Source of the DNA: Erythrobacter sp.
GTDB taxonomy: Bacteria; Pseudomonadota; Alphaproteobacteria; Sphingomonadales; Sphingomonadaceae
NCBI GenBank assembly: GCA_030148605.1
Contig: JASBTD010000053.1
Coordinates: forward strand, 62,001 to 126,000
Reading direction: 5' to 3'
DNA: 64,000 nucleotides
Of the stretch, positions 22,586 through 30,604 are shown piece after piece; within the stretch, counting starts at the first letter, position 1; each line of letters starts with the position of its first letter. A program made the translations under genes and the position numbers. Below the pieces are notes generated by a model. The model searched no databases, had not been told where the DNA came from, and saw only the letters and a program-made list of their open reading frames with translations.

Positions 22586-23686
22586 TTACATGCCTGAACC
22601 GGGCCCGTAAGTCACTTCAACACGGCGGTTCTGCAGTTCGCGTACGCCGTCTTCAGTCGGCACGCGAGGCTGCGATTCACCGAACGCTTCGCTGGAGATG
22701 CGATCAGCAGGAATGCCGCGACCGGTCAGATATTCATTGACCGAGGCGTTACGACGCTCAGCAAGGCCCATGTTGTAGGTCACGGTACCCGAACGGTCAG
22801 TGTGACCAGCGAGCATGACGCTTGCTGTGCCGCAGTCTGCATATGCCGTCACTGCATTATCCAGAACCGTAGCAGCTTCCGGCGTAATGTCCGATTCGTC
22901 CCAGTTGAAGAAGACGATGTACGGGCCAGTGTTGCACACCGGCGCCGGCGGCGGAGGCGGCGGAGGTGGCGGAGGTGGCGGAGGCGGCGGAGGCGGCGGA
23001 GGCGGCGGAGGCGGCGGTGGCGGTGGTGGCGGTGGTGGGGCCTCTGCGCCAAAGTTGTAGATCAGGGAGCCAAGCAGTGAGTGCGTGGCGATATCTGTTT
23101 CCAGATCGCCACCTTCAAGATCAACGATGCCGACATTGGGCGCATTGAAATAGCGATACTTCAGGCCGACGTCCCAGTTGCCTGACAGCGGCGCACGAAT
23201 GCCTGCAAGCAACTGCCAAGCGAATCCGGTATCGGAATCGTCATAAACCCGATTAAAGCGTCCGTCGGCATTGCCGACATCAATTGCACCCGAGAGATCA
23301 GTCCGGGCAACGCCAACGCCGCCGCCGACAAACCCTTGTAAACCATCGTCAGGACCGAAATCAAGCAGGCCGTTGAGCATAAAGCTCAGGAAGTTGCCTT
23401 CTCCGGTGCCGTCGAACTGGGTGCCACCCACATACACTTCTTCGAGGTTCGCAGCACGGTAGCTCACTTCAGACTCGAGACGAAAACCTCCGAAATCATG
23501 TCCGACAACAGCACCGAAATCGTAGCCTGTGTCATGACCAACATTCACGTCGGCGTTATCAACATCGGCGTCTTCGACGAGCATGACACCGCCATCGACA
23601 CCAATATACCATTGGCCATCACGAGCCAGCGCCGGCGTGGCTAGCGCTGTCGATGCCATCGCCAATCCCATGACGAGTTTACGCAT
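22586..23686 (-). CDS. OmpA-family outer membrane protein with polyproline linker
   Basis: 8-stranded barrel-type N-terminus, ~33-residue Pro run, OmpA C-terminal domain (FFNWDESDITPEAATVL...LAGHTDRSGT...NRRVEVTY). Confidence 0.93.
   Translation of the reverse strand: MRKLVMGLAMASTALATPALARDGQWYIGVDGGVMLVEDADVDNADVNVGHDTGYDFGAVVGHDFGGFRLESEVSYRAANLEEVYVGGTQFDGTGEGNFLSFMLNGLLDFGPDDGLQGFVGGGVGVARTDLSGAIDVGNADGRFNRVYDDSDTGFAWQLLAGIRAPLSGNWDVGLKYRYFNAPNVGIVDLEGGDLETDIATHSLLGSLIYNFGAEAPPPPPPPPPPPPPPPPPPPPPPPPPPPPPPPAPVCNTGPYIVFFNWDESDITPEAATVLDNAVTAYADCGTASVMLAGHTDRSGTVTYNMGLAERRNASVNEYLTGRGIPADRISSEAFGESQPRVPTEDGVRELQNRRVEVTYGPGSGM
22943..23040. repeat. GGN/NCC triplet microsatellite encoding the polyproline linker
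   Basis: Run of ggcgga/ggtggc triplets about 98 nt long. Confidence 0.9.
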
Positions 23687-23867: not shown

Positions 23868-24332
23868 CTATGGCGCTGTCGGCGGCAAAATTCCTGCTTG
23901 GCGAAGCGCAGTCACAATATCTGTGATGGCTTGCCTTGCTTCAGCGTCAATAGTTGTACCGCCTTGAGGGATCGCCGGCGTGTTCGCGGCATTCCATGAG
24001 CCTGAAAACACCCGCATTTGAAAGACCGACGAATCAAAGACCTGCAAGCCATCTTGTGGAACTGCAAATTTCCAGCTTCCCGCGATAAATATCGCTAGCT
24101 TGTCTGCATGGCCTGCCCATTCCCCGACTGGGTTCGTTGAAACAATCCAGCTCTCACCTTCAACAGAACTAAGGGGTGGAGCATCTGCTACGCCTTCGAC
24201 TGTGGGATTGACTAGAGCATCAAGCAGAGAAAGTGCTTCATTCACGAAGAACTCTTTCTGCGCCTGCCCTTGGAAAAGGAGCGGGAGCGAGTGGCGCGGC
24301 GTGGATGATGCGAAACTGATAGGGTCTGCCAT
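23868..24332 (-). CDS. DUF2793-type GTA/phage-associated protein
   Basis: RHSLPLLFQGQAQKEFFVNEALSLLDALVNPTVEG...GESWIVSTNPVGEWAGHADKLAIFIAGSWKF; directly follows the gp15 relic. Confidence 0.8.
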   Translation of the reverse strand: MADPISFASSTPRHSLPLLFQGQAQKEFFVNEALSLLDALVNPTVEGVADAPPLSSVEGESWIVSTNPVGEWAGHADKLAIFIAGSWKFAVPQDGLQVFDSSVFQMRVFSGSWNAANTPAIPQGGTTIDAEARQAITDIVTALRQAGILPPTAP

Positions 24333-24349
24333 TGTAATTCCTTGAAGGG

Positions 24350-24775
24350 TTAGCCGAGATTGCCAATGAGTGTTGGGGGCGAAGTTCCGAACGTGCCGAC
24401 CTGTCGAACCCACAGCGGCATTGAGCCATGTGAAGAGACGATGCCGGCGATGGTGGTTCCGTCCAGCAACATCGATGGCTGAGCTGTTTGCCAGGAGGCA
24501 ACCGGATCGCTGACAGGTCCCGCACCTACGACATAATTCTCAAGCTCTTCGACCAATGGGGTGTCTACAAAATCCATCCAGCGCCATTGACCGCGGGCGC
24601 GCCGGGTCCAGCACAAGTTCCAGCCGCCATCGCTGGCGATCTCGTAGCGTGCATGGACAGGTGACAGCGGCGCCAATGAAATGCCGGTTGATTGAAGATC
24701 GGCAAAGGATGGCTCATCATCACCAAGGCCGATGGCTGCGATGCGGGTGTTTCCTCCTTGTGCGACCACTGGATC
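24350..24775 (-). pseudogene. GTA host-specificity protein (gp15-like), C-terminal fragment only
   Basis: VVAQGGNTRIAAIGLGDDEPSFADLQSTGISLAPLSPVHARYEIASDGGWNLCWTRRARGQWRWMDFVDTPLVEELENYVV; N-terminal ~90% absent. Confidence 0.75.
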
Positions 24776-24915
24776 GCTTCGGCATAGTCAAGCCGTGGAA
24801 ATCCGCTGCGCCGGTCAAAGGCCAATGCCCATGGCGAGACAAATCCTTGGCGCAAAGGCACTCTGGTGCCGCCTCCGCCTTTGAAGGCAGAAGCGATCGT
24901 ATCAATAAATGACAT
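24769..24915 (-). pseudogene. HK97-type GTA portal protein, N-terminal fragment only
   Basis: MSFIDTIASAFKGGGGTRVPLRQGFVSPWA..., resembling portal N-termini, directly after terminase and truncated by ~codon 50. Confidence 0.65.
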
Positions 24916-24933
24916 GCGTTACCTTTCTGAAGC

Positions 24934-26256
24934 TCACACTTGCATGACGCGCGGGTTAGCGGCGCTGTTCAACATCAATTCGCTTAGCGCCCAGACCAGC
25001 GCATCGGCGCGATCCGGGCTGGCACCAGGGCCGACATATTCGCCCCCGGTCTTGAGCCCGCAGAGCTGATCTTCGAGCTGTGCGAACACGCCCGCGTGGC
25101 GCACCCGCCCGGCTTCGTAGAGCGCAGCGACAGGTTCTGCCCTTGCCACCTTGCCGCGGCTGGCGTGCACCAGCTTCACAGGCATGGCGCAATCGGCGGC
25201 ACGCAGCACGCTGGCGACCATGTCTCCGCCCTGGTTGGCTTCGGCGATCACGCGATCTGCTTCCCATTGAGTTGCCGCGTTGCTGACAGCGCGCGCCCAT
25301 TGCTCCGGGCTTGGTTTCTCGACCGAGCAATCGGCGAGCACCCGGCCGATCCCGTCATGGCCAAGCGCGGCCACGATAATGCCGCATGCATCGCCGGAAG
25401 ACGAAGCTGGTGGATCGACACCGACAACCACACGGCGCGGCGCGCTATCGTCGCTCCGCTCGCGCGCTCGTTCCATCAGCTCACGGCTCCACAGCGCGCC
25501 TTCGACGTCAGCAATCAGCTGGCCCTGGATTTCCTGCCGCGCGAGCTGCGTTCAGCCATATTCGGCTTCAATCGCTTCGATGAAGCTTGCTGGCAGATTG
25601 CCAGAATTGTCTTGCGTTTTACCGCGCGTCACCACGGTTGTCTCGCTATCGAGCAAGCGGCGAAGCAGCGGCACCGCACGCGGCGTGGTGGTAACGACCA
25701 CGCGCTGCTCTGCACCCAATCTCAAGCCCAGCATCAGATTGTCCCAGCACCGCGTTGCGCGGTCATGCGCCAGCGGCCACTTGCCAATCTCGTCGCACCA
25801 GGCGTGCGAGAATTGCGGGCCGCGCAAACGCTCTGGCTCTGCTGCCGAGAACAGAAACGCCTGCGCTCCGTTGGGAAAACGCAGGCGATGGAGCGAACTT
25901 TCGAACTGTGGCGCGGTTTCAGGGCGCGAACAGGCGATAATTCCGCTTTCGCCTTCAACCATCACCGCGCGTGCTTCGCCAAGCGAAGCGGAAACCAGCG
26001 CGATTCGTGCCTGGGGGTTGTCTTCCACAATCTGGCGCACCCATTCTGCCCCGGCTCGCGTCTTTCCGAAGCCACGCCCGGCCATGACCAGCCAGTGCCG
26101 CCAGTTACCGGGAGGTGCACGCTGGGCATCGCGGGCCCAGAAGTTCCAGTTGTAAGCGAATTCATTGCATTCGGTCTGTGTGAACCAGTCTGCCAGCTTG
26201 TTGCGTTGGTCAGGGCTTGCTTCAAAGAGCAGCCAGTCATGCCGCTCAGGCGCCAT
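24934..26256 (-). pseudogene. GTA/phage large terminase subunit interrupted by an in-frame TGA at 25552-25554
   Basis: Walker A (WLVMAGRGFGKTRAGAEWV), SHAWCDEIGKW and nuclease-domain VVVGVDPPAS...; the two ORF-track pieces (25552-26256, 24934-25476) are in one frame with coding sequence continuing across the TGA. Confidence 0.85.
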
Positions 26257-26824
26257 GCTCGGCCTTGGCGTTCTTCTCGCGCATTACCCGCTGGCGGATT
26301 TCCTCCACCTTGCGATCGATTGAGGCGCGCACTTCTGCCGTGCTGACATTGGTGCGCACTGCCTGTTCCTTGGCAACGGTTTCCTTATGCGCGGCAAGCA
26401 GGCGCAGCGCATTGGCTACATCCATTTTGCGCGCCGGTTCCGGATCGCGCAGATAGCCGAGCACTTCCATCTCCAGATTGACATAGCCTTCGTAAAGCGC
26501 GGCTTGCCATTGGCGGGCGAATTCCATGTCCTCTCGCCGAAGCTTGTAGACTTCGCGGCTGGAAATCCCTGCGCGCCCGGCAGAAGCGGTGACATTCGAG
26601 GTTTCCGCCAGTGCTTCAAGGAACATGCGTTTCCAATGCGAGGGAGCAGGTGCACGCTGTGACCCATCGCTCTGTTTGAGGATGCGTTGGAGCTCTGCTT
26701 CAAATTCCTCGCTGCGTTCGCGGCGGCCATAGACTGCGCCTGTAGTCACTCCGGCTTCCAGCGCTGCGCGCTTGATGATTTTCAATTTGCCGAGAGCGTC
26801 TAGAAACGCACTCTCCCACGGCAA
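26246..26824 (-). CDS. GTA gp1-like small terminase / HTH protein
   Basis: Two helix-turn-helix-like units (AALEAGVTTGAVYGRRERSEEF; ASAGRAGISSREVYKLRREDMEF), overlaps terL; start uncertain (TTG, or frameshifted ATG). Confidence 0.6.
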   Translation of the reverse strand: MPWESAFLDALGKLKIIKRAALEAGVTTGAVYGRRERSEEFEAELQRILKQSDGSQRAPAPSHWKRMFLEALAETSNVTASAGRAGISSREVYKLRREDMEFARQWQAALYEGYVNLEMEVLGYLRDPEPARKMDVANALRLLAAHKETVAKEQAVRTNVSTAEVRASIDRKVEEIRQRVMREKNAKAEHGA

Positions 26825-27070: not shown

Positions 27071-27733
27071 ATGATCATGAAACCGCTGCGCGGGCTCTAT
27101 AACTGGACAATGGACAAGGCCGCGCATCCGCATGCGCAGGGCTGGCTGGCGTTCTTCTGCTTTGTCGAAGCGAGCTTCTTTCCGATCCCGCCGCACCCCC
27201 TGCTTGGCCTGATGTGCCTGGCAGAGCCTCAAAAGGCGGTCCGCTTTGCTGTGATTGCCACTCTGTCATCGGTCGCAGGCGCGCTGTTCGGTTATGCGAT
27301 CGGCTGGGGCCTTTACGATACCGTGGGCAAGCAAGTGATTGACATGCTGGGGCTCACGGCAAGCTTCCCTGCCGCGCAATGCACTTTCGAAGAATATGGC
27401 GTAGCCGCAGTGATTTTCGCCGCCGCGACTCCTGTGCCGTTCAAATTGCTCACCATCACTGCCGGCTTTATGGAAATGGCGATCATCCCCTTCCTGCTGG
27501 CGAGCCTGGTGGGCCGTTCACTGATCTTCATGACTGTCGGGATTTTGTTCCGCCTCTTCGGCGCCCCGATCAAGCGTATCATCGATGAATATCTCGGCAC
27601 GGTGACGACACTGTTCGTAGTGCTGGTAATCGGCGGCTTTATCGCGATCACTCAGTTGGGAAGCGATGAAAGCGGCAGCAACGGCGGCACCTGCGCGGCG
27701 GCGACGCATTCTGCACAAGGCAGCGCAGCCTAG
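27071..27733 (+). CDS. YqaA/DedA-like (SNARE-associated) membrane protein
   Basis: LAFFCFVEASFFPIPPHPLLGLM..., PFKLLTITAGFMEMAIIPFLLASLVGRS. Confidence 0.8.
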   Translation: MIMKPLRGLYNWTMDKAAHPHAQGWLAFFCFVEASFFPIPPHPLLGLMCLAEPQKAVRFAVIATLSSVAGALFGYAIGWGLYDTVGKQVIDMLGLTASFPAAQCTFEEYGVAAVIFAAATPVPFKLLTITAGFMEMAIIPFLLASLVGRSLIFMTVGILFRLFGAPIKRIIDEYLGTVTTLFVVLVIGGFIAITQLGSDESGSNGGTCAAATHSAQGSAA

Positions 27734-29392: not shown

Positions 29393-30604
29393 TCAGATAA
29401 TTCCGGTCGCTTTCCCCGCGCGTTCGAACATGCCGAGGATCGTTGTCACTTCCTCGTCGCTATGTTCAGCGCAAAGCGAACAGCGCAGCAGCGTCATGTT
29501 GGCAGGGGTCGCCGGTGGGCGCGCCAGATTGACATAAAGCCCTTCCTTCAACAGCGCTTCCCACATTGCTGCCCCGCGCGCGAGATCAGGCATGATCACT
29601 GCGATGATCGCGCTCTGCGGCTCGTCCGTGCCAAGCTGGAAGCCCAGCTCTTTCAAGCCGCGGTGCAGGTTCTTCGAGTTTTCCCACAGATGCGCGCGCT
29701 TGTTCGAGCCGTGCATCAGCTTGCGGATCGAAGTTGCTGCAGTCGCAACCACGCTCGGCGGGAGCGATGCAGTGAAAACATAGGGGCGACACACCAGCCG
29801 CATGATCTCGAACTTAGGGTGGTTCGACACGCAGAAGCCGCCAACCGTGCCGACGCTTTTCGAGAAGGTGCCGATGATGAAATCGACATCATCGATCACA
29901 CCCTGGCTTTCGACGACACCGCGCCCGTTTTCGCCGATAAAGCCCATCGAGTGCGCTTCATCGACCAGCACCATCGCGCCATATTTCTTGGCAACTGCGA
30001 CCATCTCCTTGAGCGGGGCGACATCGCCCAGCATCGAATAGACGCCTTCAAGCACTACCAGTTTTCCGGCACCCTCCGGAATACGGCGGAGGCGCTTTTC
30101 CATCGCTTCGATATCATTGTGCTTGAATGGCACGATCTCCGCATTGCCCATCGCGCAACCATCCCAGATCGAGGCATGGCTATCGATATCGAGCACGACA
30201 TAGTCGCCCTTGCCCGCGATGGTGGCGATGATGCCCAGGTTCGCCTGGTAACCGGTAGAAAACACCATGGCATGGTCCATGGCGTAAAATTCCTTCAGCG
30301 CGTCCTCGACTTCGCGGTGGCCCTGGTAAGTGCCATTGAGAACCCGGCTGCCCGTCGTGCCTGAGCCGAAATTGGTCAGCGCATCCTTGCCTGCTTCGAT
30401 AACGTCTTCATCGAAGGTCATGCCCATGTAATTATAGGTGCCGAGCAGGATCGTCTCACGACCATTGCAGATCGCACGGGTGGGCGAGAGCACTTTTTCC
30501 ATGACGAGGTTGAACGGATCTTCGACGCCGCTTGCGAGCAGCGTTTCACGCGTCTGGATCAGCTCGTCGAACTTCGAGAACAGGTCGGGTGCAGTGTCAC
30601 TCAT
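29393..30604 (-). CDS. spt: Serine palmitoyltransferase (alpha-oxoamine synthase family)
   Basis: NYMGMTFDEDVIEAGKDALTNFGSGTTGSRVLNGTYQGHREVE, DEAHSMGFIGENGRG, GTFSKSVGTVGGF; paired with a dedicated ACP. Confidence 0.9.
   Translation of the reverse strand: MSDTAPDLFSKFDELIQTRETLLASGVEDPFNLVMEKVLSPTRAICNGRETILLGTYNYMGMTFDEDVIEAGKDALTNFGSGTTGSRVLNGTYQGHREVEDALKEFYAMDHAMVFSTGYQANLGIIATIAGKGDYVVLDIDSHASIWDGCAMGNAEIVPFKHNDIEAMEKRLRRIPEGAGKLVVLEGVYSMLGDVAPLKEMVAVAKKYGAMVLVDEAHSMGFIGENGRGVVESQGVIDDVDFIIGTFSKSVGTVGGFCVSNHPKFEIMRLVCRPYVFTASLPPSVVATAATSIRKLMHGSNKRAHLWENSKNLHRGLKELGFQLGTDEPQSAIIAVIMPDLARGAAMWEALLKEGLYVNLARPPATPANMTLLRCSLCAEHSDEEVTTILGMFERAGKATGII

Follow-up and report, generated by a model that had tools for sequence, protein, structure and literature searches.

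Probable internal deletion of an RcGTA-like head-tail cluster in an Erythrobacter genome, and loss of the cluster at the same site across the genus

Gene transfer agents (GTAs) kill the cell that produces them, and the reason for their persistence is an open question. A 64,000-nucleotide stretch of an Erythrobacter sp. genome (contig JASBTD010000053.1 of assembly GCA_030148605.1, hereafter the window) raises the question of how such a cluster is lost. Its minus strand carries, from 26824 down to 23868, a small terminase gene, a large terminase gene (terL), portal codons 1–49, a gp15 gene reduced to its final ~140 codons, and a DUF2793 gene. We conclude, with a probability of about 93%, that this locus is what an internal deletion left of an RcGTA-like head-tail cluster that had been inherited vertically.

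Gene pieces of the remnant

Open reading frames (ORFs) in 23868–26824 were scanned against Pfam and PHROGs. The ORF list, these scans, and homology to relatives recovered all five pieces named in the initial annotation, in the order and on the strand given there (Table 1). The gp1 gene has 47–57% identity to gp1 of six intact relatives and an uncertain TTG start, and DUF2793 has 42–50% identity to its counterparts in six relatives, where its position is the same. The terL gene is divided into an ATPase part (26256–25555), an in-frame TGA (25554–25552), and a nuclease part that runs to 24934. The TGA lies at codon ~237, where 17 of 22 intact relatives encode glycine. The frame is otherwise open, with 69% identity to intact terL on both sides of the stop. 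This second lesion was missed in the initial annotation.

The two truncated genes differ in how they were recognized. The gp15 piece (24775–24356) aligns to residues 588–728 of the 729-residue gp15 of L095, has 45–53% identity to six relatives (E 3e-45 to 3e-36), and matches the PHROG tail protein at that protein's C-terminus. Portal residues 1–49 (24915–24769) have 33–62% identity to the N-terminal part of the portal in over 25 relatives (best E ~4e-15) and produced no match to a Pfam or PHROG profile. No Pfam match is expected, because the piece stops short of the Pfam portal domain, whose first residue in the L095 homolog is 57. The portal assignment is based on pairwise homology and gene order. 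A profile search had been proposed as a check on both fragments; it identified the gp15 piece, and the portal piece was matched pairwise only.

Some further features were observed around the terminase genes. The N-terminus of gp1 (26650–26824) has an extra stretch that resembles a diverged second copy of its own helix-turn-helix-like region, and upstream of gp1 there is an ATG at ~26847 in a different frame, with a run of C in between. A 416-codon ORF lies antisense to terL on the plus strand (25096–26346), so that terL is broken and its complement is open; this ORF is probably an artifact of codon bias.

Table 1. Features of the window locus and its flanks, with private breakpoints found at the same site in other genomes of the genus
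Feature	Position	Strand	Evidence
OmpA-like protein, proline-rich (flank; synteny anchor outside the GTA)	22586..23686	-	Same place in intact and collapsed relatives
DUF2793 tail fiber gene, complete frame	23868..24332	-	Pfam DUF2793, E 1e-23
gp15 (Rcc01698-like host-specificity/tail protein), C-terminal ~140 codons only	24350..24775	-	PHROG 4271 tail protein
Deletion junction, portal codon ~49 to gp15 codon ~587	24760..24778		Portal and gp15 homologies both end, and overlap, at this point
gp3 portal, first 49 codons only	24769..24915	-	tblastn to >25 relatives; homology in frame stops at residue 49
gp2 large terminase (terL), pseudogene	24934..26256	-	Pfam Terminase_6N, E 6e-18; Terminase_6C, E 1e-23
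gp1 small terminase subunit	26246..26824	-	PHROG 4044 terminase small subunit, E 5e-14
DedA-like membrane protein (flank; synteny anchor)	27071..27733	+	Adjoins gp1 in relatives
Aminotransferase, serine palmitoyltransferase-like (flank; synteny anchor)	29393..30604	-	82–93% identity, same side in relatives
Private breakpoint, G019	portal 184 to DUF2793 40		
Private breakpoint, G045	terL 98 to DUF2793 36		
Private breakpoint, G038	gp1 113 to gp15 568		
Private breakpoint, G020	gp1 151 to gp15 356		
Private breakpoint, G022	gp1 89 to DUF2793 112		

Intact counterparts and the deletion in place

Full clusters at the window's site have the order gp1, terL, portal, protease, capsid, gp6–gp15, and DUF2793. 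Six genomes of the same genus (L091–L096) carry gp1, terL, and portal, followed 10,993–11,163 bp further on by the gp15 C-terminus and DUF2793; the alignment with intact clusters that the initial annotation had called for therefore places 11.0–11.2 kb at the window's junction. The genes between code for the protease, the capsid, gp6–gp11, a non-contractile tail-sheath/DUF2460 protein, the gp13 hub, gp14, and the rest of gp15, and Pfam identified Rcc01698_C and DUF2460 domains in an intact relative's cluster. The flanks are alike in the window and the intact relatives, with MFS, SodC, and proline-rich OmpA genes on one side and DedA and aminotransferase genes on the other. The distance from OmpA to the aminotransferase is 5.7 kb in the window versus ~14.7–15.1 kb in closely comparable full sites. 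The OmpA-like neighbor, which adjoins the GTA site genus-wide, has a long unbroken proline run at 22980–23040.

The rest of the window's genome assembly (2.60 Mb, 66 contigs, 97.8% complete) was searched for the missing genes. There was no match for Phage_portal in the assembly, the GTA capsid was not found in it, and the sole gp15 match was the window's C-terminal piece, with no full gp15. A search for gp12, which covered the window's genome alone, also found nothing. Run over 61 genomes, the same searches found targets in 23 with the capsid query and in 32 with the gp15 query, so the empty answers for these two genes are meaningful. The structural block described in the initial annotation as absent is thus missing from the locus, its four searched members (portal, capsid, gp12, and full gp15) were not found elsewhere in the assembly, and the suggested search for a second intact GTA returned none of them. 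Deletion in place follows from same-genus genomes that have the intact cluster between the same flanks and from a window genome that lacks the deleted genes.

By descent the locus is RcGTA-like: its outer genes lie in order on the minus strand, the inner genes are present in orthologous relatives, homology was found gene by gene (for the portal piece by pairwise comparison only), and the cluster is inherited vertically at a fixed host site. Core genes of the full clusters track rpoB distances (r 0.74–0.80), so these clusters look vertical and not re-acquired. The locus does not qualify as a functional GTA, with portal, protease, major capsid, and tail genes missing and terL interrupted.

At the junction, homology in the portal frame extends to codon 49 (24769) and homology in the gp15 frame begins at residue 588 (24775). 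The out-of-frame switch from portal to gp15 described in the initial annotation is real and is placed at ~24760–24778, compared with 24770–24830 originally. Its position is known to about ±10 bp, the nearest intact relative having ~85% rpoB identity. Portal relatives have ATCC at this point and several gp15 relatives have GATCCG or GACCCA, in a register one codon off and from distant genomes, so that microhomology at the junction is possible only. At this distance, comparison with the relatives pins down neither the exact base nor the microhomology.

An internal deletion would have joined portal codon ~49 to gp15 codon ~587 with the loss of ~11 kb, removing most of portal, the protease, capsid, head-tail and tail genes, gp12–gp14, and most of gp15. 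A point mutation, earlier or later than the deletion, would have produced the TGA in terL. Particle production was presumably lost with these changes, no second copy having been found, and the remaining pieces may now be decaying under relaxed selection; the likely driver would be that non-producers are spared the cost of lysis. The pN/pS values of the window's terL, DUF2793, and gp15 C-terminus are close to those of an intact cluster, which indicates that decay is recent or weak; gp1 has a value of 0.47, versus 0.37 in an intact relative.

How many events were involved is less certain. The initial annotation proposed one deletion; deletion in place is supported, and a single event is the simplest history, inferred and not proven. 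The closest genomes to the window genome on the rpoB tree are G002 and G044, whose sites are empty, followed by G033, which is full. An alternative is that a smaller early loss within the core was later widened to the present junction. Intermediates of this kind are found in the genus, since G051 and G053 lack terL 152 to gp13 and keep gp14–gp15, and in G056 nothing remains to the left of gp15 residue 43; the sites of the nearest species have already been emptied as well. The window itself has a single visible junction and no inner core gene left, and we hold stepwise loss to be a possible but tentative account. A misjoined draft assembly, in which an intact cluster was assembled without its ~11 kb core, would also give this arrangement, and counting against the deletion is an assembly of 66 contigs at 97.8% completeness, which leaves a narrow opening for a misjoin at 24769. 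Misassembly would not yield the TGA in terL, however, the core is on no contig, and many genomes of the genus have collapsed sites, the single-contig genomes G003, G021, and G051 among them. We therefore consider an artifact very unlikely.

The genes are of phage kinds, as would be expected if the locus were an ordinary prophage remnant and not a GTA. That origin is extremely improbable given that intact orthologs occupy one fixed site genus-wide with genes that track rpoB, and that the order gp1–gp15 plus DUF2793 and the Rcc01698_C and DUF2460 domains are RcGTA-like. No integrase or repressor stands out on reading the ORFs of 20–31 kb. It is also quite unlikely that the remnant is retained for an independent function, for example through the small terminase and DUF2793. 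Their frames are open in the window, and in other collapsed genomes gp1 and terL 1–151 have pN/pS of 0.41 and 0.29, versus 0.42 and 0.32 in intact ones, but terL in the window is interrupted by a stop, gp1 is evolving faster there than its counterpart in an intact relative, and the sites of the two nearest species are empty. Internal deletion of a vertically inherited RcGTA-like cluster remains the preferred reading.

Loss across the genus and a shared junction

The capsid is present in 53 of 113 genomes of the genus, and the GTA site was mapped in the first 61. States at the site range from full, through many partial clusters with private breakpoints (Table 1), to sites with no GTA gene left (G002, G044, G012, and G028). 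Private breakpoints, this series of states, and the window genome's place on the rpoB tree together indicate frequent independent loss. The initial annotation had presented the window as a snapshot of a GTA being lost; the loss is real, but the cluster has been lost independently many times at this site in the genus, which makes the window less singular. Between the collapsed site of G045 (L127; an assembly of four contigs) and the full site of its near relative G006 (L093) there is a clean 12.9 kb deletion with flanks that are 95% identical. This deletion of the core, similar in kind to the window's, is recent, and the near-identical pair is suited to experiments.

The window's portal::gp15 scar is private, unlike a terL::DUF2793 junction that is common in the genus. 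In the shared junction, terL ending in GPQHSHA (codon 151, directly before the Walker B motif WCDE) is followed by four bases and then, out of frame, by DUF2793 from GQAQKEF (codon 21–22), with identical spacing. It occurs in 15 of the 61 mapped genomes, and a pattern search brought the count to 27 of the genus's 114 genomes and added ~26 among 390 genomes of 14 further genera in the family (loci L108, L110, L111, L114, L115, L117, L118, L121, L124, L125, L128, L129, L130, L133, L135, and L201–L222). A reversed control pattern gave zero matches in the same search, and when a gap of 0 to 30 was allowed a single spacing was found (10/10). Of 12 junction loci fetched from other genera, all have gp1 adjoining and 11 have the terL fragment. 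None of the 27 genus carriers has a capsid.

Carriers are dispersed over the rpoB tree, where 13 carriers require 12 changes, not better than shuffled labels, and an old vertical trait of one clade was rejected (AU p 4e-86 for rpoB and 8e-6 for gp1 plus terL). Their gp1–terL sequence broadly follows species. There is no excess mutual similarity among carriers in gp1, terL, or DUF2793 windows, so spread of the junction on tracts of hundreds of bp is unsupported. Of the synonymous sites close to the junction, the very last shows a clear association: codon 151 reads GCT in 22 of 53 carrier sequences and in 0 of 22 full clusters. Two further sites have p ~0.01–0.02, as expected by chance in 35 tests. 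In gp1 and terL 1–151 of carriers there are no stops and pN/pS is the same as in full clusters.

In two distant species, G051 (L101) and G053 (L098), terL 1–151 is fused in frame to the C-terminal half of gp13, and gp14, gp15, and DUF2793 come after the fusion. The shared junction may have arisen in two steps through this terL::gp13 fusion, with a common GCCGGGCAG; the letters are compatible with this route and do not prove it. These facts fit either repeated deletion at exactly the same points or a single old null allele swapping flanks with full alleles, and sampling of one genome per species cannot separate the two. We give even odds to the view that the exact null allele (terL 151::DUF2793 21) is a long-persisting or spreading non-producer, transmissible or balanced, or else the product of a site-specific deletion that recurs. 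We know of no mechanism for cutting at terL codon 151 and at the DUF2793 coding site.

Full, gutted, and empty alleles at one conserved site offer a natural experiment in how a seemingly altruistic trait is lost, to which the window contributes a mapped private loss. If the shared junction is one null allele crossing species, it would be direct evidence of long-lived non-producers; if it is recurrent, an unknown and precise deletion mechanism would be indicated.

Relation to known systems

A conserved 'ancient prophage' of Sphingomonadales was reportedly described by Viswanathan et al. in 2017 beside superoxide dismutase and OmpA genes. This element has been classed as RcGTA-like (PMC6821227). 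The window has the same gene order and families as the intact RcGTA-like head-tail clusters of Sphingomonadales, at the same fixed site by proline-rich OmpA and superoxide dismutase. It differs from them in lacking the ~11 kb core and in its interrupted terL, and judging by its genes it would be unable to build particles.

Chromosomal curing, in which integrated elements are removed by importing deletion alleles through homologous recombination (PMC4774983, PMC12637031), would account for one GTA-null junction in many lineages. The cases described concern mobile elements in naturally transforming species, whereas here the flanks are without donor ancestry even near the junction. In the literature searched, whose coverage left out most subscription papers, no description of this exact junction turned up. 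Pseudogenization and complete loss of GTAs in multiple alphaproteobacterial lineages have been published, and cheater lineages have been proposed (PMC10883770), so the window is a further example of an established type of loss. The GTA here is likewise lost, and the difference lies in mapped breakpoints and in a series of full, partial, and empty states at one syntenic site in one genus.
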